A stretch of 64,000 nucleotides of DNA from Thioalkalivibrio sp. XN8 (GTDB lineage: Bacteria; Pseudomonadota; Gammaproteobacteria; Steroidobacterales; XN24): contig NZ_JAALFH010000067.1 in NCBI RefSeq assembly GCF_011058255.1, positions 369,724 to 433,723 on the forward strand. Reading direction: 5' to 3'. Below the pieces are notes generated by a model. It ran no database searches, was not told the DNA's origin, and worked only from the letters and a program-made list of their open reading frames with translations. Shown here piece after piece: positions 19,511-53,444 of the stretch (within the stretch, counting starts at the first letter, position 1; every line of letters begins with the position of its first letter). The translations under genes and the position numbers were made by a program.

Positions 19511-20383
19511 TTGAGCGCAAAGATCCGCTACGCCGTCTTTCCGGTAGCCGGCAAGGGCACCCGTTTCCTTCCCGCCACCAAGGCGAGCCCGAAGGAAATG
19601 CTCCCTGTCGTCGACAAGCCGCTGATCCAGTACGCCGTCGAAGAGGCCATTGCCGCGGGGGCGACCAACCTCGTCTTCATCACCGGGCGCAACAAGCGGG
19701 CCATCGAGGACCATTTCGACGTCGATCCGGAGTTGGAGCTGCTCCTGGCCAGCAAGGACAAGGACGAGCTGCTCGATATGGTACGCAACACGGTCCCGCC
19801 GCACGTGAACTGCATTTACGTCCGCCAGGGCGAACCGCTGGGCCTGGGGCATGCCGTGCTCTGCGCCCGCCCGGTGGTGGGCAACCAGCCGTTCTTCGTG
19901 CACCTGGCCGACGACCTGATCGACGCGGAGGAAAGCTGCCTCGGGCAGATGGCGCGCGTCTTCGAGGCCGAGGGCGGCAGCGTGCTCGGCGTCGAAGAGG
20001 TACCGCGCACCCAGACCCGGCAATACGGCATCATCGACGCCGAGCCCGTGGCCGAGGGACTGCGGCGGCTGCGGGGAATCGTGGAGAAGCCGAAGCCGGA
20101 AGACGCCCCGTCGAACCTCGCCGTCGTGGGGCGCTATATCCTGACGCCGCGGATCTTCGAGCTCCTGGCCGACACCGGCGCCGGCGCCGGGGGCGAGATC
20201 CAGCTCACCGACGCGATCGCCCGGCTGCTCGCGGAGGAGCCGGTTTTCGGGCATGAATTCAATGGCTTGCGCTTTGATTGCGGGAGCAAGCTCGGCTACC
20301 TGGAGGCGACCGTGCATTACGGGCTGAAGCATCCCGAGCTCGGGCCTGAGTTCCGCCAGCACCTGCGCGACATGGCGTTCTAG
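19511..20383 (+). CDS. galU: UTP-glucose-1-phosphate uridylyltransferase
   Basis: 290 residues from a TTG start with a near-perfect AGGAGG six bases upstream; the frame continues 102 bases further upstream but without family similarity. It makes UDP-glucose for envelope polysaccharides. Motifs are [20 protein letters not shown] and [18 protein letters not shown] at the nucleotide site, GLGHAVLCA, and [14 protein letters not shown] near the C-terminus. The final residues [17 protein letters not shown] match the family. Confidence 0.96.
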
Positions 20384-20557: not shown

Positions 20558-22780
20558 ATGACCAAGACTCGAACTTTCCGCCGGGCCGGCATCGCCACGC
20601 TCACCGCGCTGGCCTGCCTTTCCCTCGTGCTTGCCGGTTGCAGCGGAGATGACGGCCCGCCGGGTCCGACGGGTCCGGAGGGGCCGCCGGGAGCTGGCGG
20701 ACCGCCGGGACCCGAAGGCCCGCCCGGACCGCCCGCGACGGCCGTCGTGATCATCGGCAGCGGCGACCTCAGCGCCGAACAGGCGGCCGAGATCGGCACC
20801 CTGGTGGTGGACATCACCGATGTCGTCATCGCCAGCCCGCCGACGATCACCTTCAGCGTCACGGCGGCCGACGGCCGGCCGGCGCTGCAGATCGCGCCTG
20901 AACTGCTGAACTTCACGCTCAACAAGCTGCAACCGGCCGTGGACGGGATTCCTGCGGCCTGGGTCAGCTACATCAACCGGCTCGAGGTGGCCAACGCCGC
21001 CGCTACCCCGAACGTGCTGGAGCAATCGCTGCAGGCCACCACCGAGAACGGCAGCGCCGGCACGCTGCTCGAGCTGGGCGAGGGCGTGTACGAGTACACC
21101 TACGCCACCGATCCCGCCAACGTCACCGACCCGGTGGCCGTGGCCTATGAGCCCGAGCTGGTGCATCGGGTGGGCCTCGAGATTCGCGGCGGGGGCGGCA
21201 GCGCTTTGCGCGACATCGCGCCCGACAACCCGGTGATGGATTTCATTCCCGCGACCGGCGCGATCGTGGCGCTGGAGCGGCAGATCGCCGGGACGGTCGA
21301 CTGCAACGCCTGTCATGAGCGGCTGTCGTTCCACGGCGGCCCGCGCTTCACCATGGAATACTGCGTGACCTGCCACAACCCGGACACCATCGACCAGGAT
21401 ACCGGCGAGTCCCTCGACATGGCCTACATGGCGCACTCCATTCACATGGGGCCGAACCGCGCCGAGGAATACGTAGTCTACGGCTTTGGCGATCGCCGGC
21501 ACGCCTACGGCGGGGTCACCTACCCGCAGGACATCCTGTTCTGCGAGAGCTGCCACGAGGCGTCGCCGGAAACGCCTGCGGGCGACGCGTTCGACGCGAC
21601 CGTCACCGCGACTACCTGCGGCGGCTGCCATGTCGAAGGGCTGGTACTCGGCGTGCCGGACGCGGTCACGGGCCGGCCGATCTACAGCTATGCGCACCAG
21701 ACCACACCCATCGGCACCTTCCAGACCGGCGTCTGCACGCAGTGCCACAACGGCACCATCGTGGCTTCCGCCGGCGTGATCCACGCCAACATCACCGACT
21801 CTGCGCGCCAGCGCACGACCCAGGGCGAGGACTTCACCTACGAGATCCTCAGCGTGGTGAACACGGCGCCCGGCGACACGCCGACCGTGACGTTCCGCAT
21901 CCTGGGCGCCGACGGCACGCCGCTCGACGTCATCGACGGCCCGACCTTCAACACCAGCGGCACTCGCCTGCGCATCAACATCGGCTGGTCGGCCGACGAG
22001 GTGTACAACGGCTTTCCCCTGCCGGACGGCAGCCAGGCGAACGAGCAGGGCCAGCCGGACAGCTACGACCTGATCGCGCGCAAGGCCGACATCACCGACA
22101 ACGGCGACGGCACCTTCAGTTTCACGGCCGACGCGCTGCCGCTCGCTTATCCCGGCGACCTGGTGGTGCATCTGGAAGGGCGTCGCGTGCTCGAGGACGG
22201 CACCCGCGCCTATCCGGACAATGCAGTGTTCTTCCCGGGCCAGCAGCGTGCTCGCATCGTTACCCAGGAGGCCTGCGAGGCCTGCCACGTCCAGGTCGTC
22301 TACCACGGCAGCGCCCGGGCGGGTGATCCGGAGACTTGTGCTGTCTGCCACAACGCGGACGCGGCCTATGTGAACCTGGGCCTTACGACCATCGCCCTCG
22401 GCCCGATGCTGCACGAGATCCATGCCGCGGTGTACCCGGGCTTCGAAGGCGTCACCTATCCACACAGCGTTGCGAACTGCCAGGGCTGCCATGCGGAAGG
22501 GACCTTCTACGCCGCCCGCGACACGGCGCGCCCGGTGTCTTACGACGAGGGTGCGGATCCTCTGAGCTGGGCGGACGACATCGCGACATCCGCGACCACC
22601 GCGGCCTGCGTCAGCTGCCACAGCAGCAACGCGGCGAAGTCCCATATGGAGAGCAGCGGCGGCGTCATCGACGGCGTGAAGGGCGACATGCCCATTCCCT
22701 CATCGCTGACGGAGAGCTGCCTGCTCTGTCATGGCCCGGGTCGGGTCGCGGACACGGCAGCCGCCCACGGCCAGTTGTAG
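20558..22780 (+). CDS. OmcA/MtrC family decaheme c-type cytochrome, outer-membrane lipoprotein (copy 1)
   Basis: 740 residues. The signal peptide ends in a lipobox with LAGC (Cys28), followed at once by nine uninterrupted Gly-X-Y triplets (residues 33-59), a collagen-like linker. Ten CXXCH haem sites follow, in two groups of five: CNACH, CVTCH, CESCH, CGGCH, CTQCH, then CEACH, CAVCH, CQGCH, CVSCH, CLLCH. This two-pentahaem plan is that of Shewanella MtrC/OmcA, which accept electrons from the MtrAB conduit and pass them to minerals or other extracellular acceptors. It is first in the mtr-like block and paralogous to the next gene. Whether it is surface-exposed is inference. Confidence 0.93.
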   Translation: MTKTRTFRRAGIATLTALACLSLVLAGCSGDDGPPGPTGPEGPPGAGGPPGPEGPPGPPATAVVIIGSGDLSAEQAAEIGTLVVDITDVVIASPPTITFSVTAADGRPALQIAPELLNFTLNKLQPAVDGIPAAWVSYINRLEVANAAATPNVLEQSLQATTENGSAGTLLELGEGVYEYTYATDPANVTDPVAVAYEPELVHRVGLEIRGGGGSALRDIAPDNPVMDFIPATGAIVALERQIAGTVDCNACHERLSFHGGPRFTMEYCVTCHNPDTIDQDTGESLDMAYMAHSIHMGPNRAEEYVVYGFGDRRHAYGGVTYPQDILFCESCHEASPETPAGDAFDATVTATTCGGCHVEGLVLGVPDAVTGRPIYSYAHQTTPIGTFQTGVCTQCHNGTIVASAGVIHANITDSARQRTTQGEDFTYEILSVVNTAPGDTPTVTFRILGADGTPLDVIDGPTFNTSGTRLRINIGWSADEVYNGFPLPDGSQANEQGQPDSYDLIARKADITDNGDGTFSFTADALPLAYPGDLVVHLEGRRVLEDGTRAYPDNAVFFPGQQRARIVTQEACEACHVQVVYHGSARAGDPETCAVCHNADAAYVNLGLTTIALGPMLHEIHAAVYPGFEGVTYPHSVANCQGCHAEGTFYAARDTARPVSYDEGADPLSWADDIATSATTAACVSCHSSNAAKSHMESSGGVIDGVKGDMPIPSSLTESCLLCHGPGRVADTAAAHGQL

Positions 22781-22800
22781 GCATTGCGGGGAACTGCTGG

Positions 22801-22835
22801 CGGGGGCCGGGGCAAACCCGGCCCCCGTTTTCTTT
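22801..22835 (+). terminator. Strong rho-independent terminator between the two decaheme genes
   Basis: An 11-bp perfect stem (CGGGGGCCGGG with CCCGGCCCCCG, loop GCAAA) is followed by TTTTCTTT. It lies 20 bp after copy 1 and 172 bp before the copy 2 start, so copy 2 probably has its own promoter in the AT-richer stretch near 22860-22900. Confidence 0.8.
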
Positions 22836-23007
22836 CCGGGGTGCCTGGCGCGAATCCGGAGTGCTTAATTTTCCGTGGCTTAGGTATAAGTCCTGATTCT
22901 TGGGAGGGGTGTTCTCCCGTGAAATGAACGCTGTAATTCCAGTAGTTTCGCGGCCCTTGAGAGTCCCGGCGGCTCTCGCGGCCGCAAGCAGGGGACAGGG
23001 TAGGCCA

Positions 23008-25341
23008 ATGACCGTGATTTCCGGACGCTTTATCGGGCTCAAGGCATTGCTGGCGGCGGGAATTCTTTCCCTTGCGCTGGCCGGTTGCGACGGGGACAAC
23101 GGGCCCGCCGGACCCTCCGGCCCCTCCGGGGACCCGGGCCCCGTCGGCCCGCCCGGCGGCGAAGGCCCGCCCGGACCGCTCGGCGACATCGTCATCGGCA
23201 ACGGCGGCGGGCTGAGCGAGCGCCAGCTCGAGCTCATCGGCCGGATCCAGGCGGAAATCACCGGCGTCGCGCTGAACGGAACGCCGGTCGTCGAGTTCAC
23301 GCTCACCACCCAGGGGGGTGACGCCATCCTCGGTCTCGATCCGGGCGTGATCAGTTTCACGCTGGCCAAGCTCGCTCCCCCCGGCAACGGGCTGGCGCCG
23401 CAATGGCAGAGCTACATCAATCGCATCCAGACCGCCTCTGCGGGGCCCCAGGCGCTGCCCCGGGCCGTCCAGGCCACCACCGAGTCGGGACGCGACGGCG
23501 TGCTCTCCGAGCTCGGCGACGGTGCCTACAGCTACACCTTCGCCACCGATCCCGCCAACGTGACCAGCCCGCTGGCCGTCAGCTTCGAGCCCGACGTGGT
23601 GCACCGGGTCGGCTTCGAGCTCAGGATGCAGGCGCCGGGCAACCAGGTGTTCCCGGACAATCCGGTGTTCGATTTCATCCCGGCCACCGGCGCGGCCGTG
23701 CCGCTGGCCCGTACCATCGCGGCCAACGAGAACTGCAGCAATTGCCATGAGCGGCTGGAACTGCACGGCGGTCCGCGGGTGACGGTCGAGTATTGCGTCA
23801 CCTGCCATAACCCGGCCACCATCGATCCCGATTCGGGCGAGTCGGTGGACATGGCCTACATGACGCACGCGATCCACCTCGGCACCGAGCGCACCGAGCC
23901 CTACGTGGTGTACGGCTTTGGCGGCAGCCGCCACGACTACTCGAACGTGACCTACCCGCAGTCGCCGCTGTTCTGCGAGAACTGCCACGAGGCGAGCGCC
24001 GCGGCGCCCGAGGGCGACAACTGGAAGTCGGCGGCGAGCTCCACGGTATGCGCCGGCTGCCACATCGAGGGTCTCGCCATCGCCCAGCCGGACCCGGCGA
24101 CCGGCCTGTCGCAATACGCCTATGAACATGACTTCGGGCCGGCGGCTGAGGGCACCTGCGTCAGCTGCCACGCGCCGGGCAGCTCTGCGGGCGGCAACGA
24201 AGCGAATCACCTGAGAGGGATCAAGGAAGCGACGCTGATCGGCCGCGAGCAGTTCGACTATGAAATCCTGGCCGTGGAGAACGCCGTGGCCGGGTCGCAG
24301 CCGGTCATCACTTTTGCGGTCACCAATCCGGCCGACGGCACGCGTTACGACATCACCACGGACGCGCCCTTCAACCAGGGCTCGGCCAGCCTGACGCTGG
24401 ATATCGCCTGGAACACCTCGGATTACTCCAACGAGGGCAGCGGCAGCGCCACTGTCGACACCGGGGCGCCCGCGCAGCCGGCGACCATCGGGCTCGCAGC
24501 CCTGAAGACGGACGCCGTCCGCAACGCCGACGGCAGCTACACCGTCACGGCGCCCAATCCGCTCCCGGCGGCTGCGACGGGCGGCGTCGCCGTGGCGCTC
24601 GAGGGCCGCCCGATCGTGGCCTCGCCCTCGACCGGGTCCCTGATCAGCATCCCGGTCGAGGGCGACGTGTTCTTCGCCGGCGAGCCCCGGCGGGAAATCG
24701 TGTCGCTCGAGAGCTGCAACGCCTGCCACGAGTCGCTGGCCCTCCACGGCAACAATCGTGCCGATAACATCCAGCTGTGCGCGACCTGCCACAACCCTGA
24801 CGCCACCGACGTCCGCCGGCGGGACGGGGCCGGCTTCAGCTGGGCCACGCCGTCGCCGCTCGACGGTAAAGGCGAGGAGAGCGTGGACATGCGGTTCATG
24901 ATCCATGCAATCCATGCGCAGCAGAACGTGGTCTACGGCTTCGGCAACACGCCGCACGATTACCGCGACATCACCTATCCCCAGGCGCTGGCCAACTGCA
25001 ACGCCTGCCACTTGGAAGGCACTTACTACCCGCCGGCCGAGCAGACGCGCTCGGTGACCATCAACACCGGCGCGGACCGGGCCGACTGGCGCGACGACGT
25101 GGCGATCACGCCCACGGCAGCAGCCTGCTGGTCCTGCCACCAGGGCGCGCCGACTTCTATCGCCAACCTGGCGCGGCTGCACATCATGCAGAACGGCGGC
25201 TACCTGCCGTCTGCGACCGATACCAGCGTGACCAAGGAAACGCTCGAGGCGCAGTCCGTCTCCGCGTTCATCGAGAGCTGCGGCATCTGCCACGGTCCCG
25301 GCGCCATCGCCGACGTCGAAGTGATGCACGGGCTGCGCTAG
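23008..25341 (+). CDS. OmcA/MtrC family decaheme c-type cytochrome, outer-membrane lipoprotein (copy 2)
   Basis: 777 residues from the ATG whose product begins MTVISGRF; a start 108 bases upstream would bury the signal peptide. The lipobox has LAGC with Cys27, then nine Gly-X-Y triplets (32-58). Ten CXXCH sites: CSNCH, CVTCH, CENCH, CAGCH, CVSCH, CNACH, CATCH, CNACH, CWSCH, CGICH. Long stretches are shared with copy 1 (for example EYCVTCHNP and MAYMTHAIHLG versus MAYMAHSIHMG), so the pair arose by tandem duplication and has diverged. The mtrA-like gene starts 20 bp downstream. Confidence 0.93.
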   Translation: MTVISGRFIGLKALLAAGILSLALAGCDGDNGPAGPSGPSGDPGPVGPPGGEGPPGPLGDIVIGNGGGLSERQLELIGRIQAEITGVALNGTPVVEFTLTTQGGDAILGLDPGVISFTLAKLAPPGNGLAPQWQSYINRIQTASAGPQALPRAVQATTESGRDGVLSELGDGAYSYTFATDPANVTSPLAVSFEPDVVHRVGFELRMQAPGNQVFPDNPVFDFIPATGAAVPLARTIAANENCSNCHERLELHGGPRVTVEYCVTCHNPATIDPDSGESVDMAYMTHAIHLGTERTEPYVVYGFGGSRHDYSNVTYPQSPLFCENCHEASAAAPEGDNWKSAASSTVCAGCHIEGLAIAQPDPATGLSQYAYEHDFGPAAEGTCVSCHAPGSSAGGNEANHLRGIKEATLIGREQFDYEILAVENAVAGSQPVITFAVTNPADGTRYDITTDAPFNQGSASLTLDIAWNTSDYSNEGSGSATVDTGAPAQPATIGLAALKTDAVRNADGSYTVTAPNPLPAAATGGVAVALEGRPIVASPSTGSLISIPVEGDVFFAGEPRREIVSLESCNACHESLALHGNNRADNIQLCATCHNPDATDVRRRDGAGFSWATPSPLDGKGEESVDMRFMIHAIHAQQNVVYGFGNTPHDYRDITYPQALANCNACHLEGTYYPPAEQTRSVTINTGADRADWRDDVAITPTAAACWSCHQGAPTSIANLARLHIMQNGGYLPSATDTSVTKETLEAQSVSAFIESCGICHGPGAIADVEVMHGLR

Positions 25342-25361
25342 GCAAGCGGAAGGAAAGCACC

Positions 25362-26309
25362 ATGCTGTTGAGATCAAGCGTACTGTTCATGGCCCTGCTG
25401 GCTTGCGGCCTCCTGGGTGGCGTCCCGGCGACCGTGCAGGCCCAGGAAGAAGAAGTGGTGGCCTACAGCGATCGCGGCGCCGACGGATGTATCGGCTGTC
25501 ACCGCCGGTGGGAGATCCCGCTGATGGGGATCTTCGAGACCCCGCACGGCAACCCCCATGATCCGCGCTCGCCCTTCGGCGAGAAGCAGCTCCAGTGCGA
25601 GGCCTGCCACGGTCCCGGCGGGGCGCACGGCGGCCGCGTGCCGCGCGGCGAGCCACGGCCCTACATCATCAACTTCGGCTCGGACGCCAAGACCCCCATC
25701 CCGGAGCAGAACGCGATGTGCCTGCAGTGCCATGAAGGCCATGTCGGCGAGCAGTGGGCGGGCAGCGCGCATGACGTCAACAGCGTCGCCTGCGCCGATT
25801 GCCACAGCTCGCACCAGCCCCGCGACCCGGTGCTCGACAAGCGCACCGAGGCCGAGGCCTGCTACGCCTGCCACGCCAACGTCGAGGCGCATTTCCTCAA
25901 GCCGTCCGCGCACCCGGTGCGCCAGGGCCAGGTAACGTGCACCGACTGTCACAAGCCCCACGGCAGCAACGCCGAGGGCCTGCTGATCCGCGCCACACTG
26001 AACGAGACCTGCTTCGAATGCCACGCGGAAAAGCGCGGCCCGATGGTATGGGAGCATGCGCCGGTGGTGGAGGACTGCAGCAACTGTCATGACCCGCATG
26101 GCGCCGTCCATCCCGCGATGCTCACACGGCGGCCGCCGATGCTGTGCCAGTCCTGTCACACGCCGGCGGGCCATCCCTCCGTGCCCTATGGCAGCGGCGA
26201 CCTGGCCGACGGGTCCGCGTCGGCGTACCTGCTGGGCGGCAACTGCCTCAGTTGCCACGCGCAGGTCCACGGATCCAACCATCCGTCCGGCAAGGCGCTG
26301 ATGCGCTGA
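25362..26309 (+). CDS. mtrA: MtrA/DmsE family periplasmic decaheme c-type cytochrome
   Basis: 315 residues, with a Sec signal peptide (about 1-27, cleavage after VQA). Ten CXXCH motifs at short regular spacing: CIGCH, CEACH, CLQCH, CADCH, CYACH, CTDCH, CFECH, CSNCH, CQSCH, CLSCH. That count, the length and the neighbouring porin fit the MtrA/PioA/DmsE family, in which the haem wire is inserted in the MtrB barrel and carries electrons through the outer membrane. A purine-rich ribosome site (GGAAGGAAAG) precedes the ATG. The symbol is by family, since MtrA and DmsE cannot be told apart from sequence alone. Confidence 0.92.
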   Translation: MLLRSSVLFMALLACGLLGGVPATVQAQEEEVVAYSDRGADGCIGCHRRWEIPLMGIFETPHGNPHDPRSPFGEKQLQCEACHGPGGAHGGRVPRGEPRPYIINFGSDAKTPIPEQNAMCLQCHEGHVGEQWAGSAHDVNSVACADCHSSHQPRDPVLDKRTEAEACYACHANVEAHFLKPSAHPVRQGQVTCTDCHKPHGSNAEGLLIRATLNETCFECHAEKRGPMVWEHAPVVEDCSNCHDPHGAVHPAMLTRRPPMLCQSCHTPAGHPSVPYGSGDLADGSASAYLLGGNCLSCHAQVHGSNHPSGKALMR

Positions 26310-26330
26310 GCGACGCAGGAGACGCCAGAG

Positions 26331-28475
26331 ATGAACCGGAAGACCAACCTCAAGCTGCTCGTCGCGACCCTGCTCGGCACGATCGCCCTGCACGGCGGCG
26401 CCGCGAGCGCCCAGGAAATGCCCGACTTCGAGCGCTGGGAGTGCAAGCGCTGTCCCTTCCCTGACAAGGGGCTCGAGGGCGACGCCGGGGCCGCCGCGCT
26501 CAATGTCTCGGACGACTCGGCCCGCTTTGGCGACTACACCGGGCTGGACGAGAGCGGGGCCTACCTCAATGCCGACGCCGACCTGCTGTACCGGGCCGAG
26601 GGCGGCTACGCCGTCTCGTTGCTGGCGCAGGACCTCGGGCTGGATTCCCGGAGCCTCGCGCTGCAGGCCGGCCGGCGCGGGCACTGGGTGGTGGACCTGT
26701 CGTGGGACGAGATCCCGCGGCGGCTGGACGACTCCGTGCAGACGGTGTTCGGCGGGCTCGGCAGCAGCCGGCTGACGCTGCCGTCGTCGTGGGTCCGCGG
26801 CAACTTCACCTCCGATATGGCGGCACTCGACGCCAACCTCAGGGATTTCACGCTCGGCTGGGACCGCAAGACGCTGGGTCTCGGCTTCGAGTTCGTGCAG
26901 TCCGAGCGACTGCGCTACGAGGTGGACGCCAGCTCAGAGACGAAGGAAGGGCGCGGCCTGACCTGGGGCAGCTTCATCGGCACGGCCGCCGACCTGGTCG
27001 AGCCGCTCGATTACCAGACCGACCGGGTCGATGCGGCGCTGATCTACAGCGGCGAGACATGGAACGTCCGCGTCGGCTACTACGGCTCCTTCTTCAGCAA
27101 CCAGGACACTTCCCTGGCCTGGGACAATCCCTTCAACGGGCCGGACCAGGGCCGCATGGCGATGGCGCCCGACAACCTGTACCACCAGGGGATGATTTCG
27201 GGCGGCTACCGCTTCGTCACCTGGGACACCACGCTCAACGCCAGCTATGCGCGCGGCCGGATGGAAAACAGCGACTCGCTGCTGCCGTATACCATCAACC
27301 CCGCGATCCCGGCCCAGGCGCTGCCGGCGGCCGAGTTCGACGGCCAGGCCGACACCACCAACGCCAACCTGCGGCTCAGCGCCCGGCCGAACAGCCGGCT
27401 GCGCCTGACCGGCGAGTACCGCTCGAGCGAGCGCGACAACAAGTCGCCCCAGTACGACTGGGCGCCGGTGCAGGCTGACGCGTTCCAGACCCTGTCGGCG
27501 GTCAACCCGGTCTACAGCTACGAGACGCGCGACCTGGCCTTCGCCGCTGACTACCGTTACAGCCGGGCCATCCAGGTCGGCGCCGGGTGGGGCAGCAAGG
27601 TGCGCGACCGGGACTTCCAGGACGTGAGGCGAACCGAGGAAGACGGCACCTGGGCCCGGGCGCGGTTCCGTCCCATCGACCAGCTGGGCCTCGCCCTGCG
27701 GGCCGAGAGCACCACGCGGGACGCACGTGAAGCACTGGCCCCGCCGGTGGTCGGCGCCGGCAGCGCGCAGAACCCGTTGCTGCGCAAGTACCATACGGCT
27801 GACCGGGACCGGGACCTGGTGCAGGCCGAGGCCGACTTCACGCCTGCCGGTCGCTTCAGCCTGGCGATGCGCTTCGAAACCGCGCGTGACAGCTATGACC
27901 AGAGCGAGGTCGGCCTGGTGTCGGCCGATTACGACCAGTACAGCGCCGAGGCAAGCGTGCGCGTGGGCGAGAAACTGGGGGTCACCGGCTACTTCAGCCG
28001 CGAGAATTACGACTCGCGGACCATCGGGGCCGCCAGTTTCGTGGCGCCGAACACCGCTCCGCCCAACTGGGCCGGCACCAGCGAGGACCGCCATGACGTG
28101 TACGGCGTGGCGCTCAACTGGCCGGGACTGGCCGACGGCAAACTGGACCTGACCGCCGACTTCACGCGCGCGGACACGCGGGGAGAGTTCCGCATCGAGG
28201 ACCCGCTGGGCGGGGCCCAGGATACGTTCCCGCCGCTGGAGTCCAAGCTGACCGGGGTCCAGCTGATGGCCGACTGGCGGCTGAACGAACGCTGGAGCCT
28301 CAATGCGGGCTGGCGCTGGGAGGATTTCGAGGCCGACGACTGGGCCAAGGACGGTGTGGGTCCGGCGACCATCGCCAATGTCCTCACCTTCGGCGCCGAT
28401 ACCCTCGACTACGACGTCAACGTCTTCCTGCTGGGCTTCACCTACCGCTTCCTCAACGCGGAAGAAGACGAATAG
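26331..28475 (+). CDS. mtrB: MtrB/PioB family outer-membrane beta-barrel of the electron conduit
   Basis: 714 residues. A signal peptide (about 1-27, ASA-QE) is followed by the N-terminal CKRC pair (Cys38, Cys41), the CXXC that is characteristic of MtrB in metal reducers. The rest consists of alternating amphipathic strands rich in aromatic and charged residues (LRLTGEYRSSER, RFSLAMRFETARDSY) ending in the barrel-type VFLLGFTYRF, with a short acidic tail after it. It forms the pore that sheathes MtrA. It starts 21 bp after mtrA and ends before a strong terminator. Confidence 0.92.
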   Translation: MNRKTNLKLLVATLLGTIALHGGAASAQEMPDFERWECKRCPFPDKGLEGDAGAAALNVSDDSARFGDYTGLDESGAYLNADADLLYRAEGGYAVSLLAQDLGLDSRSLALQAGRRGHWVVDLSWDEIPRRLDDSVQTVFGGLGSSRLTLPSSWVRGNFTSDMAALDANLRDFTLGWDRKTLGLGFEFVQSERLRYEVDASSETKEGRGLTWGSFIGTAADLVEPLDYQTDRVDAALIYSGETWNVRVGYYGSFFSNQDTSLAWDNPFNGPDQGRMAMAPDNLYHQGMISGGYRFVTWDTTLNASYARGRMENSDSLLPYTINPAIPAQALPAAEFDGQADTTNANLRLSARPNSRLRLTGEYRSSERDNKSPQYDWAPVQADAFQTLSAVNPVYSYETRDLAFAADYRYSRAIQVGAGWGSKVRDRDFQDVRRTEEDGTWARARFRPIDQLGLALRAESTTRDAREALAPPVVGAGSAQNPLLRKYHTADRDRDLVQAEADFTPAGRFSLAMRFETARDSYDQSEVGLVSADYDQYSAEASVRVGEKLGVTGYFSRENYDSRTIGAASFVAPNTAPPNWAGTSEDRHDVYGVALNWPGLADGKLDLTADFTRADTRGEFRIEDPLGGAQDTFPPLESKLTGVQLMADWRLNERWSLNAGWRWEDFEADDWAKDGVGPATIANVLTFGADTLDYDVNVFLLGFTYRFLNAEEDE

Positions 28476-46794: not shown

Positions 46795-49524
46795 ATGCGC
46801 CAGGGACTGGCCCGACAGGCAGGCCGACTCTGGCCCCGCTTCTGGCGGCAGAGCCTCCGGCACCAGTTGCTGGGCGTTTTCAGCATCGCCATGCTGGCGC
46901 TGCTGGCGGGCGGCGCTGGCGCGATCATCGTGCTGGTGAGCAAGGCCGAGCGCGATGCCTGGGAGGGCCGCCAGCGCGAGGCGACCCAGCGCGTGGCCGC
47001 GACGGTGGACGGCTTCCTCGAGCGGCAGCAGGACCTGCTGAAGGTGCTCGATTCGATCGGGCATGCCGGCGCCAGGGGCAGTTCGGCCGAGATCGATGAG
47101 CTGGTCCGGACCCAGCCCGCCTTGCACGAGGTCGTCTACCTCAGCCCGTCCGGCCGGATTCTCGCCCATGCGCCGACCGAGGAACGCGGCCTGGCCGGGC
47201 TGTTCACGATCAGGCAATCGAACTGGTTCATGGCCGCGCGGGGTGGCGAACGCTACATCAGCGACGTGCAGGTATCGGCGAACGAAGAGCCCTACCTGAT
47301 CATCGCAGTGCCGGCGGCGAGTGGCACGGTAGTGGCCGGGCGGGTCCGCATGGAGGGACTGTCCGAGGTCATCGCCGGCATCCAGCTGGGTGAGTCCGGC
47401 GTCGGCTACCTGGTGAACCAGAACGGGCGCGTGATCGCCCACGCCGATTCGACGGTCGTCCGGCGCCAGACCCACGTCGCGGACCGGTTGCATGCGCGGA
47501 TCGGTGAGGTTTCCGGGTCCTGGGCCGGCTTGTACCAGGATTTCGACGGCAACACGGTGCTGGGCACCATGATCCCGGTACCGGGAACCCCCTGGTTGGC
47601 CGTGACCGAGGTGCCGTTGCACAAGGTCTACCAGGCGAGCCGCCAGGCCCTGGTGATGATGGCATCCCTGGGCCTGTTCTTCGGGATGCTGGTGATCGGG
47701 GTCGGTTCGCGGCTGCTCGACCAGCATTTCGTGAGCCCGATCAAGCGCCTGGAGGACGGCGCCCGGCGCATCGGCCGGGGCGATCTCGCGCATCGCATCT
47801 CGCTGGAGGATGCCGGGGAGATCAGTCGGGTCGGCGCGGCCTTCAACGAGATGGCCGCCCGCCTGCGCCAGCGCGAACAGGAGATCATCGAGCAGAAAGA
47901 GGCGTTGGAGCGGGCCAAGGACGCCGCCGAGGTCGCCAACCAGGCCAAGTCCGAGTTCCTGGCCAGGATGAGCCACGAGATCCGGACGCCAATGAACGGC
48001 GTGCTCGGGATGACCGAGCTGCTGCTGGACTCCGAACTCGACGCCACCCGGCGGCGCCAGGTCGAGCTGGTCCGGCATTCCGGGCAGCACCTGCTGGAGC
48101 TGATCAACGACATCCTCGACTTCTCGCGGGGCGAGTCCGGCCGGATCGAGCTGGAGCAGTCCGGGATCGACCTGGCGCGGTTCATCGGCGAGACGGTCGA
48201 GATGTTCCGCGCCCAGGCCCAGGTCAAGGGGCTCGAACTGCGCTTCAGGCAGCCGAGCCTCGCCGCGCCGCTGTGGGTGAAGGGCGATCCCTTCAGGCTG
48301 CGGCAGCTGCTCATGAACCTGGTCGGGAACGCCATCAAGTTCACCGCCTCCGGCGAGGTCCGCATCGAATGCGTCATGGCGCCGACGGGCGATGGCCGCT
48401 GGACCGCCTGGATCAATGTCCGGGACACGGGCATCGGGATTCCACGGGATTCGCTGGCCCGGATTTTCGAGCCCTTCCGGCAAGCCGACAGCTCGACTAC
48501 CCGCCGGTTCGGCGGCACCGGCCTCGGACTCGCCATTTGCCGCCAGTTAGTGGAGCTGATGGGCGGCAGGATCGGCGTCGAAAGCAAGACCGCCATCGGG
48601 TCCAATTTCTGGCTGGAGCTGGAATTCGAGACTGCGGCACCCCCTGTGGCCGAGGAGGCCGAGCGAGCCGCGGACGAGCTGCCGCCGATGCCCGTCCTCG
48701 AACCGCCGGTCGAGCGGAATAGCTTCGCCGGGGCGGCTGGTGCGCGCGGGCGGGTGCTGCTGGCCGAGGACAACCTGGTCAACGAGACGCTGGCCTGCGC
48801 GATGCTGGACCGGCTGGGGATGAGGGTGACGGTGGCGCGAAGCGGCGAACAGGCGGTGGCGCTGGCAACCGGGCGGGACTTTGACCTGATCCTGATGGAC
48901 TTGCAAATGCCGGTGCTGGATGGCTTCGAGGCGACCTCGGCGATCCGGGCCGAGACTGAGGCAGCCGGCCGGCGCGTGCCGATCGTGGCATTGACTGCGA
49001 ACGCGCTCGCAGGAGACCGGGAGCGTTGCCTGGCGGCCGGGATGGACGACTACCTGGCGAAGCCGTTCACGCGGGCGCAGCTCGAGGGCGTGCTGCGCCA
49101 GTGGGTCGCGCCCCGGGTCGAAGACGCGGATTCGGCCCGGGATTCCGCGGCGGAGTCGAACCCCCACAATGAGTTCATCGATACCGCGGTGCTCCGCCAG
49201 TACGAGGAGCTGGACGCCAGCGGCGAGGGCGCGTTGGCTGCGCGCCTGATCCAGGCCTACCTCGAGACGGCGGGCACGATCATCCAGGATATGCGCAGCG
49301 CCATCGGGACGCCCGACCTGAACGCGGTGCGGCAGCATGCCCACAAGCTGAAGTCCGGCGCGGCCAACGTGGGAGCGCGGCGCCTTGCGGAGCTCGCGGC
49401 CAGGCTGGAGACGACCGCTCGTGAGGGCAACGCGGCCGAGGCCCGGGGCATGCTGCAGCTGGTCGAGAACGAAAACACGATGGTCTGCGCGGCCTTGCGC
49501 GGCTGGTTGCCGGAGGCCGCATGA
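46795..49524 (+). CDS. Hybrid sensor histidine kinase (Cache-HAMP-HisKA-HATPase-REC-HPt)
   Basis: 909 residues. TM1 at about 28-48, a large periplasmic Cache-type sensor region (about 50-283), TM2 at about 284-304, then HAMP. HisKA carries His394 in [13 protein letters not shown]; the ATPase domain has N ([12 protein letters not shown]), G1 (DTGIGIP) and G2 ([10 protein letters not shown]) boxes. The receiver has Asp702 in [13 protein letters not shown], and a C-terminal HPt domain has His850 in [13 protein letters not shown]. It is thus a complete His-Asp-His relay ending at HPt. It starts two bases after the binding protein and overlaps the next gene by four bases, so ligand-bound binding protein probably signals through the Cache domain to the downstream receiver. 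Confidence 0.94.
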
Positions 49525-52500
49525 AGAACCCGAGCATGCGCGTGCTGTATGCCGACGACGACGCTACCGCGCGCGTCCTGATGGGCGCGGCACTGGAGCG
49601 CAGCGGCTTCGAAGTCGGGCTCGCAGTGGACGGCGACGACGCGCTGGCCAGGTTTCGCGAGGACGACTACGACCTGGTGCTGCTGGACGTGGAGATGCCC
49701 GGGCGAAACGGCTTCGAAGTCTGCCGCCTGCTCAGGACCGAAACCGGGGAGGAGTTGCCGATCGTCATGGTCACCGGGCATGACGACGTCAGCGTCGTCG
49801 AGCAGGCCTTCGACCTGGGCGCAACGGACTTCATCTCCAAGCCTATCAACTGGGGCCTGATCGGCCACCGCCTGCGCTACCTGCTGCGCGGCCGGGAGCT
49901 GCTCCAGGATCTCTGGCGAAACGAGCGCCAGCTGGAAGAGGCGCAACGGATCGCCCGGATCGGCAGCTGGGAGCTCGATCCGGTGGTCGGCAAGGTGAGC
50001 TGTTCCGGGGCGATGCTCGCAATTTTCGAGCTTCCTGCAGACGAAACCGAACTGCCGCTGGACCAGTTGCTGGAGCGGGTCGACCCCGCAGACCGGGCCG
50101 GCGTGCGCGCCGCCTTCCTCGACCGCGACGGCGGCGAGAGCGGCGGCGCCGGCATCACCTACCGCCTCCAGTTTCCAGGCGGACGCGTGAAATACCTGCG
50201 CCAGGAGGCTGCGCCGAGAGGCGACCTGGACAGGAACATGCCGGGCGTCGTGGGCACGGTGCAGGACATCACCGACCAGCACCTGGTACGCAGCGCTCTC
50301 GAGGCCCTGGCGACGAGGCTGGCGGCCCTGTCGGGCGAATCGTTCCACGCTGCGGTCAGTCGCTGCCTGGTCGAGGAGTTGAACCTCGATGTCGCCTTCG
50401 TGGGGCGACTCGATCCCGAGCGCCTCAGCGTCCAGGTGATCGCAGGCTGGCAAGCCGACGGCCCGCTCGAGCCGTTCGTGTACGAGCTTGCCGGGACCCC
50501 CTGCGCCGACGTGTTTACGCGCGGCCACCAGGTCCATCCCAGCGACATCCAGGCGCACTTTCCAGCCGACGACCTGCTACAGGAGCTCGGGCTCGAGTCC
50601 TATGCGGGCGTGCCGCTGTTCGACAAGAACAATGCGCCGATCGGCATCCTGGTGGCCGTGGGCCGGCGCCGGCTGGATCGCCCCCTGCTGGTAGGGCGGC
50701 TGCTCGACATTTTCGCCGGCCCCGTCGGGACGGAGATCATGCGGTCCGACGCCGAGGCGGCGGCGATGCGGCTCGCCGACTATCGCCAGATGATCCTCGA
50801 GCTCTCCTCGGGATTCATCCGTACCCGGCCGCACGAGATCGACGACTCGATCGACCAGGCGCTCGGCCGGATGGCCGAGTTCTTTCGGGCCGATCGCGCG
50901 TATATCTTCAGCTACGACTTCGCCGCGGGGACGACCAGCAACACGCACGAATGGTGCGGACCGGGGGTCTCGAGCCAGATCGACAACCTGCAGCAACTGC
51001 CTCTCGAGACGGTCCGGGAGATGGTCGAAACGCATCGCAGCGGGCAGCCGATGGTCATCCCCGACGTCACGGGGCTACCTCCCGGCGACCTGCGCGGCAT
51101 GCTGGAGCCGCAGGACATCAAGAGCCTGATCACGTTCCCGATGGTCTACGAGGAGGAATGCCTCGGCTTCGTCGGCTTCGACGCGGTGCACGAGCACGTG
51201 GACTATGGCGCCGACGAGAGCGAATTGCTGGGGCTGTTGGCGGGCCTCCTGGTCAATGTCGAAACGCGCCGCCGGGCGGAGCAGGCCGTGCGCGACAGCG
51301 AGCGCCTGCTGCAGCAGGCCCAGGCGGTGGCCCACCTCGGCAGCTGGCTGTACGACCTGGCCACGGACGAGCTGCACTGGTCGGACGAGACTTACCGGAT
51401 CTTCGGCCTGGCGCGCGGCACGCCGATGAACTACGCCCGCATCATGGCCCTGGTCCACCCGCAAGACCGGGAGGCGGTCGAAAGCGCCTGGCGGGCCGCC
51501 CTCGAACACGGGGATCTCTTCATCGAGCACCGGATCTCCGTCGAGCACGAGGTGCGCTGGGTGGCCGAGCGCGCGCAGATCACGCGCGACGCGGCGGGCA
51601 ACCCGGTGGCCGGCATCGGCACGGTCCAGGACGTCACCGACCGGAAACGGCACGAACTCGCCATGGTGGAGGCCACCAACAAGCTCCGCGACACGCTCGG
51701 GGCGATCCCCGACCTGCTGCTCGAAGTGGCCGCGTCCGACCGGATCATGGATCTCCACGTGCCGGAGGCGACCGGGCTGACCCTGCACGGCGCGGTCGGC
51801 AAGACGCTGGCAGAAGTGTTCCACGAGGAGGCGGCCGCAACCTTCAAGGCCGCCCTGCAGGAAGCCCGCGAGCAGGGCGCCTCGCTGGGGATGATTGCCG
51901 AGCTCGAGACCATGCAGGGTCCCCGCTGGTTCGAGCTGTCTGCCTCGCGCAAGGAAGGCGCGGAGCCGGAAGCCGCCAGTTTCGTCGTGCTGGCGCGCGA
52001 CGTCACCTCGCGCCGGGAGGCGGAGCAGAAGGTCTACCGGCTGGCGTACTTCGACCCCCTGACAGGCCTGCCGAACCGCCTGTCCTTCAGTGAACAGCTC
52101 GAGCGCGAGATCTACCGGGCCCGGCGCGCCGGGTGCAAACTCGGGGTGCTGTTCCTTGATCTCGACGGCTTCAAGAACATCAACGACACCATGGGCCACG
52201 GTACGGGGGACCTGCTGCTGCAGTGGGTTTCGGACCGCCTCCGGCACAGCGTGCGGCCGGCGGACCTGGTCGCGAGGATCGACTCCTCGGAACAGGAGAT
52301 CGCCCTGGCGCGGCTCGGCGGCGACGAGTTCACGGTGATGGTTCCCAATCTCCAGGATGCGGAGGACGTGCTCGGCGTGGCGCACCGCATCCATGAACAG
52401 ATGCGCCGGCCCTTCCTGCTCGAAGGACGCGAGGTCGTACTGACGGCCAGCATCGGGATCTCCGTGTTCCCGGAAGACGGCGAGGACAGCTCGAGCCTGC

Positions 52501-53444
52501 TCAAGCATGCCGACACTGCGATGTACCACGCCAAGGACCAGGGCCGCGACAACTGCCAGTTCTACAGCGCGTCCCTGACCGAACGGGCGCTGCGGCGGCT
52601 CGACCTGGAAAACAGCCTGCGGCGCGCGCTCGAACGGGACGAGTTCTTCCTGGTCTACCAGCCGCAGCTCGACGTTGCCACCGGGCGCGTCAAGTCGGTC
52701 GAAGCGCTGTTGCGCTGGCAGCACCCGGAGCGCGGCCTGATTCCCCCGCTGGATTTCATCCCCGCAGCCGAAGAGAACGGCCTGATCGTCCCGATCGGTG
52801 AGTGGGTCATGAAAACGGCCTGCGCGGACGCCATGCGGTGGACCGCGCAGGGGCTGGACCTCCGCGTCGCGGTCAACCTGTCGGCGCGGCAGTTCCGCGA
52901 CCCGGCCCTGTCCGAGCGCATCGCTGCCATTCTCGCCGACTCGGGGCTGGCTGCCGACCGGCTCGAGCTGGAGGTGACCGAAGGTTCCTTGATGGAGGAC
53001 ACCGACGCGACGCTGGCCACCCTCAACCGGCTCACCAGCATCGGGCTGCGCCTGTCGCTGGACGATTTCGGCACCGGCTACTCCTCCCTGAGCTACCTGA
53101 AGCGACTGCCACTCGACAACCTCAAGGTCGACCGCAGTTTCGTCCGCGGGCTGCCGTTCGACCACGACAACATGGCGATCGTGCGGGCGATCGTGTCGCT
53201 GGCACGGAACCTCGGCTACAGCGTGACGGCGGAGGGCGTGGAGACCGTGGCCCAGGCGAGCTGCCTGCGCACCCTGGCCTGCGACCTGCTGCAGGGCTAT
53301 TTCATCGGCCGGCCGGTCGGCGCCGAGGAAATCCCCGACCTGATCCGGAATTTCGGCGCCCGCGCCGAGGACCAGGGGCTGGTCCCGGGCCGCGGCGACA
53401 GCGGCTCCACGGAATCGACCCTCACGGCACTCGGCTTGCGCTGA
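49521..53444 (+). CDS. Receiver-PAS-GAF-GAF-PAS-PAS-GGDEF-EAL cyclic-di-GMP regulator
   Basis: 1307 residues, cytoplasmic, no transmembrane segment. Receiver 7-118 with Asp56 in [13 protein letters not shown], a PAS region (about 140-250), two GAF-like regions (about 270-400 and 415-575), two further PAS regions (about 590-710 and 725-835), then GGDEF with intact RLGGDEF (motif 933-937) and EAL with intact E1061-A-L in [10 protein letters not shown] plus [10 protein letters not shown] and KVDRSF. Both catalytic signatures are complete, so it could make or degrade c-di-GMP depending on state. The ATGA overlap with the hybrid kinase makes it the natural phosphoacceptor of the HPt domain. Confidence 0.93.

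Follow-up and report, generated by a model that had tools for sequence, protein, structure and literature searches.

How might a gammaproteobacterium carry electrons through its outer membrane, in which direction would they flow, and which inner-membrane protein would supply them? These questions are raised by four open reading frames on the plus strand (positions 20558-28475) of a 64-kb stretch of DNA, here called the window, from the 3.1-Mb genome of Thioalkalivibrio sp. XN8 (67 contigs, listed as 100% complete). The frames encode two lipoproteins, Omc1 and Omc2, followed by MtrA and MtrB. We are largely confident that they serve as an Mtr-type conduit for the anaerobic respiration of an extracellular acceptor, with a putative donor of the ImcH/CbcL type.

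Judged by their sequences, the four genes are a real and complete outer-membrane conduit of the already known Mtr type, as the sequence-only reading had proposed when it recognized two OmcA/MtrC-like lipoproteins, MtrA and an MtrB/PioB barrel; all four products score above the NCBIfam cut-offs. Omc1 (20558-22780, 740 amino acids) and Omc2 (23008-25341, 777 amino acids) match the OmcA/MtrC-family model TIGR03507 with 385.7 and 465.2 bits, respectively (cut-off 209.3), and Omc1 also matches the Pfam families OmcA-like_N and MtrC/MtrF II-IV. MtrA (25362-26309, 315 amino acids) reaches 285.2 bits with TIGR03508 (cut-off 192.2), and its residues 34-315 match chain A of the solved complex 6r2q (9.9e-83). 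The MtrB/PioB outer-membrane β-barrel (26331-28475, 714 amino acids) scores 440.5 bits with TIGR03509 (cut-off 240.05) and 486.2 bits with Pfam MtrB_PioB (PF11854), and its residues 13-706 match chain B of the same complex (1.6e-81). The earlier count of thirty CXXCH sites in three genes holds, with ten each in Omc1, Omc2 and MtrA and none in MtrB; when all six frames of the 64 kb were read, no CXXCH was found outside these genes, in keeping with the first reading that the window contains no CymA-type protein. The placement between galU and moa genes likewise stands: in a profile search the upstream gene, which ends at 20383, matches NTP_transferase and is named galU from this match and the gene order, and the downstream gene, with its start taken as 28723, matches moaA domains. 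From galU to moaA, the intergenic gaps are 174, 227, 20, 21 and 247 bases. A terminator-like hairpin of 13 pairs (22799-22829, plus strand) lies between the two lipoprotein genes; five terminator-like sites were found in the region against 3.6 expected, and the stems of the other four have 5 or 6 pairs. If the hairpin acts as a terminator, it may set omc1 apart from the other three genes, giving two transcripts. Elsewhere in the window (46795-53444), two very large proteins of 909 and 1307 amino acids are encoded in a row, the second of which by eye starts like a response regulator.

The N-terminal CXXC ascribed to MtrB is present once, as CKRC at residues 38-41 (26442-26453). When any CXXC within 160 residues of the start of the open frame is accepted, a loose criterion, 75 of 83 MtrB frames have the motif; the 83 include two copies of loci from the window's family (L042 and L051), and in L047 and L109, at least, it looks like another motif. 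Because it is this common and is also present in three loci without an OmcA/MtrC gene (L105, L108 and L115), we rejected the idea that the CXXC indicates metal reduction. These loci, from Ectothiorhodospiraceae, combine mtrAB with a CbcL-type gene and, in two cases, a CymA-type gene, and are perhaps iron-oxidation (Mto-like) loci. In the related genome G003, the MtrB frame (L031:5346-7382) lacks the N-terminal CXXC and its start reads differently, possibly through an assembly frameshift.

Omc1 and Omc2 are predicted surface proteins, based on their family and a lipobox in each sequence. Their haem sites are arranged as two blocks of five, with the blocks 175-181 residues apart. The start of Omc2 is most likely the ATG at 23008, which directly precedes a signal peptide and the lipobox. 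Despite its OmcA-like fold, Omc2 is likely the partner docked on MtrAB, because its gene ends 20 bases before mtrA. The fold was taken from a single-chain model of Omc2 (mean pLDDT 78.9, pTM 0.74), which is closest to OmcA (4lmh; Z 31.2, rmsd 3.9, 607 residues aligned), followed by UndA (Z 27.6) and MtrC (Z 22.5), with the first unrelated structure at 7.2. The two lipoproteins are 42-45% identical. In a tree of 81 OmcA/MtrC-family proteins, which was midpoint-rooted, made with a quick method and has several long branches and unsure deep forks, both fall inside one group of 15 (SH-aLRT 99), and the Omc2 of the genus falls outside a group of 12 (SH-aLRT 98) that holds Omc1. By this grouping, Omc1 and Omc2 are best described as old paralogues, and a recent tandem duplication, which we also considered, was rejected on both their identity and the tree. 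The paralogue that adjoins mtrA seems to differ between genera. Further members of the family were seen nearby: at the end of contig C32 of the same genome, a third, smaller OmcA/MtrC-like gene (L019:1312-2481 and L025:18192-19364) encodes a collagen-like tract and 5 haem sites up to where a run of N and the contig end interrupt it, and the relative G006 has three ten-haem OmcA/MtrC-like genes together (L028).

In the outer-membrane cytochromes of Shewanella, a CX8-15C disulfide in domain III controls flavin binding (PMC4486940). The interval between haems 5 and 6 is free of cysteine in both Omc1 and Omc2, which therefore lack this disulfide. The same holds for 31 of 64 proteins (the window's included) in which this interval was compared, and 7 of the 64 carry CX8-15C; the set was drawn from 75 ten-haem proteins, with 11 set aside for a gap of only 21-47 residues, and left out L051 and L042 (copies of G003 and G004) and entries with X. 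In 26 of the 75 (e.g. L039, L048 and L053), two cysteines lie 34-41 residues apart between these haems, another possible disulfide instead of CX8-15C.

Directly after the lipobox cysteine, Omc1 has 10 G-X-Y triplets (20645-20734) and Omc2 has 11 (23092-23190); scripted counts of 11 and 12 each include one triplet that overlaps the lipobox. The run length of Omc1 was reached by none of 1000 shuffles. Such a collagen-like tract is found in nearly every OmcA/MtrC-family protein examined: of 77 ten-haem proteins, those of the window among them, 72 have a run of at least five triplets when the lipobox-overlapping triplet is counted, and 71 when triplets with a cysteine are left out. Among 730 other proteins of the same loci, as called by our own gene caller, which misses genes in lower-G+C loci, none reaches five triplets and the longest run is 4. 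The exceptions comprise L074, which is cut at a contig end, L091, which starts with a run of N, L060 and L084, which have a lipobox and runs of 4 and 3, respectively, and L114, in which no lipobox was found. The tract of Omc2 has a pLDDT below 50 in the monomer model. It would form a stalk that separates the lipid anchor from the cytochrome head, and such stalks may trimerize or space the heads. The N terminus of Shewanella OmcA is likewise rich in glycine. Our literature search found no paper combining 'collagen-like' with 'multiheme cytochrome', and nothing on a collagen stalk on OmcA/MtrC among the matches listed.

The locus looks ancestral to the window's family and vertically inherited there, because its place after galU is kept and MtrAB forms a single clade. 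In the family, TIGR03507 matches occur in all seven genomes, above the cut-off in six, and MtrB is present in six. The window's order, with galU followed by the mtr genes on a single contig, recurs in G001, G003, G005 and G006, and in G005 and G006 moaA follows mtrB, an arrangement restricted to the window's genus. G004 has galU and a surface cytochrome gene on a contig that breaks off, with mtrAB on another, and in G002 (80% complete) galU and a ten-haem OmcA-like gene were found and mtrAB was not. One surface gene lies beside mtrA in G005 and G001, and two in G006 and G003. In a FastTree phylogeny of the 79 loci (of 84) that gave both proteins at the required lengths, MtrAB of the six family genomes forms one clade with a support of 0.996. 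A recent insertion was therefore rejected for the family. Within the genus the same genes are kept, with MtrA 74-88% identical. Outside the family, the nearest named relatives of MtrA belong to Woeseiaceae and other uncultured Gammaproteobacteria, at 47-60% identity. These relatives come from a genome scan with 514 pattern matches, of which 417 were confirmed and the 80 loci with the MtrAs most like those of the family were kept; except for L051, which belongs to the family itself, galU is beside mtr in none of the 80, many of which have short flanks. In G001 and G003, a small cytochrome gene stands between galU and mtr. A small one-haem cytochrome in this position, before mtr or OmcA-like genes, was seen in four family genomes (L031:14940-15215, L032:11367-11627, L033:8521-8772 and L034:2646-2924) and is absent from the window's genus; it is a candidate periplasmic carrier. 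The G002 locus (L033:8521-11724), with galU, this monohaem cytochrome and the OmcA-like gene, may reflect loss of mtrAB or the 80% completeness.

What feeds the conduit has to be sought in the rest of the genome. A full-genome search for inner-membrane donors had been suggested as a check, and the absence of any cytochrome maturation system from the genome had been named as a refutation. With the PF03264 profile, no CymA tetrahaem quinol dehydrogenase was found in this genome, and the profile matches in two places, one NrfH-like and one ImcH-like. The NrfH-like gene (C33:7 kb) adjoins an NrfA-like gene, both scoring under the NCBIfam equivalog cut-offs, and the pair may provide another anaerobic respiration. 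The ImcH-type protein (L024:8017-9444, 475 amino acids) has three membrane helices predicted from hydropathy peaks, a CX3CH (CGLACH) after the third and 5 CX2CH; ImcH homologues are described as having three N-terminal membrane helices, an adjoining CX3CH and 5-9 CX2CH (PMC6295460). The adjacent gene encodes a CbcL-type protein of 642 amino acids that carries 11 CXXCH and whose membrane part resembles b561, with a Pfam b561 score of 27.6, just under the cut-off of 30.1. Seven histidines from residue 314 on are kept in all 24 aligned sequences, and hydropathy gives six peaks, two of them overlapping, hence about five helices; the structure model of a relative is poor (mean pLDDT 50.8). For the CbcL/MtrH/MtoC group, 3-23 CX2CH, 416-1034 amino acids, mostly six membrane helices and conserved b-haem histidines are reported (PMC6295460). 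The names ImcH and CbcL thus rest on described features, the proteins being set beside those of Geobacter by description rather than alignment. Both genes are on contig C62 and mtr is on C33. The genome also encodes one marker of cytochrome maturation (CcmF/NrfE, TIGR00353; 722.7 bits, cut-off 569), which as far as it goes counters the named refutation, together with GspD (548.1 bits) and MenD (365.2 bits); the MenD profile is over its cut-off in all seven family genomes, although it also gives matches in all 14 control genomes, seven of them over the cut-off. A tandem pair of PdsA-like genes (C33:583782-584938, 35-36% identity) encodes candidate shuttles, which may equally be ordinary dihaem cytochromes c4.

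The ImcH and CbcL types are linked to mtr by their position near mtr in many relatives and by their co-occurrence with MtrB across genomes. Since our own gene caller fails in lower-G+C loci, neighbourhoods were counted by tblastn, in the 47 of the 80 named loci with at least 6.5 kb before mtrA and up to 10 kb on either side, using donor-type thresholds of our own choice; some contigs end inside the region, and end fragments in L052 and L077 were left uncounted. In these 47 loci, ImcH and CbcL types occur together in 12, CbcL alone in 5 and ImcH alone in 4, CymA in 10 and CbcL with CymA in 2, and 14 have none of the three; the ImcH type (16 loci) and the CymA type (12 loci) are never found together. 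A dihaem, PdsA-like cytochrome gene is present in 36 of the 47. In many named loci the ImcH-type, CbcL-type and dihaem genes precede omc-mtrA-mtrB, mostly on the opposite strand, with the ImcH-type gene on the same strand as mtr in L069, L072, L084 and L117. All 16 ImcH-type frames have the CX3CH and 13 have 5 CX2CH; the other three, shorter frames at contig or locus ends, have 3. Near mtrCAB in L041, L043, L046 and L052, there are also CbcL-type proteins of 955-972 amino acids with 19 haem sites, together with a second, 11-haem CbcL-like protein. Across the order, 19 of 147 genomes gave a CbcL-type match (E 1e-20) and 35 have MtrB; MtrB is present in 17 of the 19 and in 18 of the 128 without a CbcL-type match (Fisher p 7.8e-11, with relatedness ignored). 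Fourteen of the 19 matches are at 53-100% identity, and 13 of these genomes have MtrB (the exception being G036); the other five (G012, G059, G113, G122 and G133), at 33-44%, may be other subtypes, and G122 lacks MtrB. An ImcH-type gene likewise occurs in 19 of the 147 genomes. In 15 of them it matches at 57-100% identity, and MtrB accompanies it in 13 of these, the exceptions being G036 and G140.

From these data, we propose a path in which menaquinol would be oxidized at the inner membrane by the ImcH-type cytochrome, the CbcL-type cytochrome or both, with electrons passing to MtrA, perhaps through a periplasmic cytochrome. They would cross the outer membrane inside MtrB and reach the docked Omc2, and Omc1, expressed separately, would be a second surface cytochrome that distributes electrons to acceptors, which could be Fe(III), Mn(IV) or something else outside the cell. 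Whether this amounts to a hybrid chain, in which Gammaproteobacteria supply an Mtr conduit of the Shewanella type through Geobacter-type ImcH and CbcL, as a regular alternative to CymA, we judge to be evenly balanced.

The conduit could still hold with a different inner-membrane donor, for instance the NrfH-like cytochrome or a protein outside PF03264, although we regard this as rather unlikely. The NrfH-like gene is one of only two PF03264 places in the genome, but it directly adjoins its natural partner, the NrfA-like gene. A further point for such a donor is the state of the window's family. ImcH and CbcL types stand side by side in four of its seven genomes (XN8, G003, G005 and G006), in each on a contig apart from mtr; a CbcL-type match was not found in the other three, of which G001 and G004 carry mtr all the same, and G004 has a tetrahaem NapC/CymA type instead (186.4 bits). 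Against this stands the proximity of ImcH- and CbcL-type genes to mtr in many relatives, and we retain the ImcH/CbcL-type donor as the preferred reading.

The direction of flow is not readable from sequence, and Mtr conduits can run inwards (PMC8805035). Electrons from extracellular Fe(II) or another donor would then pass through MtrAB to the quinone pool in a lithotrophy resembling Mto or Pio, a possibility to which we give little credence here. It gains from the report that MtrAB does not split into clades of oxidizers and of reducers (PMC8805035), from RuBisCO matches in three of the seven family genomes and from the presence of the MtrB CXXC in loci without an OmcA/MtrC gene. However, two OmcA/MtrC surface proteins are present, no RuBisCO match was found in the three genomes of the window's genus, MenD is found throughout the family, and the only process previously linked to ImcH was quinol oxidation (PMC6295460). 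Outward flow is favoured because of the surface cytochromes, MenD and the lack of a RuBisCO match in the genus. We consider it very improbable that the four genes are a relic, decayed or no longer expressed: a simple scan of the region gave no sigma-70-like promoter (0.8 expected by chance), but the four frames are open, the 30 haem sites are intact and the same genes are kept across the genus.

Marine sediment is rich in Woeseiaceae and their relatives, and the identity of the donor to their extracellular conduit therefore bears on iron and manganese cycling there. The ImcH/CbcL pair near mtrCAB is a concrete and testable replacement for CymA, and if the two donors differ in redox potential, as reported for Geobacter, these sediment bacteria could adjust their Mtr respiration to suit the acceptor. 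The coexistence of ImcH and CbcL with Mtr-type genes is as such not new, since one Desulfobacterota species expresses Mtr with ImcH, CbcL and CymA homologues (PMC12133095), and cbcL and imcH occur in most sediment genomes of a set that includes 28 Gammaproteobacteria (PMC11748539). An imcH-cbcL-mtrCAB cluster in Gammaproteobacteria was not among the literature matches listed in a search that covered mainly open-access papers. Clusters of mtrCAB are described as modular and widely distributed, accompanied by CymA, NetBCD, PdsA, MtoC and new cytochromes (Baker et al. 2022, PMC8805035); by a term search, Woeseia, CbcL, collagen and galU are absent from the main text of that paper.

Compared with Shewanella MtrCAB (6r2q), the window encodes the same ten-haem MtrA, MtrB barrel and surface decahaem lipoprotein, with near-full-length matches for MtrA and MtrB, but it has two OmcA/MtrC-family genes, and the product of the one adjoining mtrA is closest in fold to OmcA. 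Unlike in the Shewanella pathway, no CymA was found in the genome, and unlike the Shewanella surface cytochromes, Omc1 and Omc2 lack the domain-III disulfide. The mtrABC genes are known from benthic Woeseiaceae (PMC12175321), and the mtrCAB loci of Woeseiaceae and uncultured Gammaproteobacteria hold the nearest named MtrA relatives (47-60% identity); where enough sequence is available, donor-type genes are often near mtr there, in contrast to the window's genome. The ImcH-type protein resembles Geobacter ImcH in its three membrane helices, the CX3CH after the third and the 5 CX2CH, but differs in genomic setting, with ImcH-type genes within the 10-kb flanks of 16 of 47 mtr loci; the 2018 survey found no mtrAB adjoining imcH (PMC6295460). 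The CbcL-type protein is built like CbcL/MtrH/MtoC, joining an N-terminal part with 11 haems to a b-type membrane part, and genes of that group are clustered with mtrAB/mtoAB in several species (PMC6295460).
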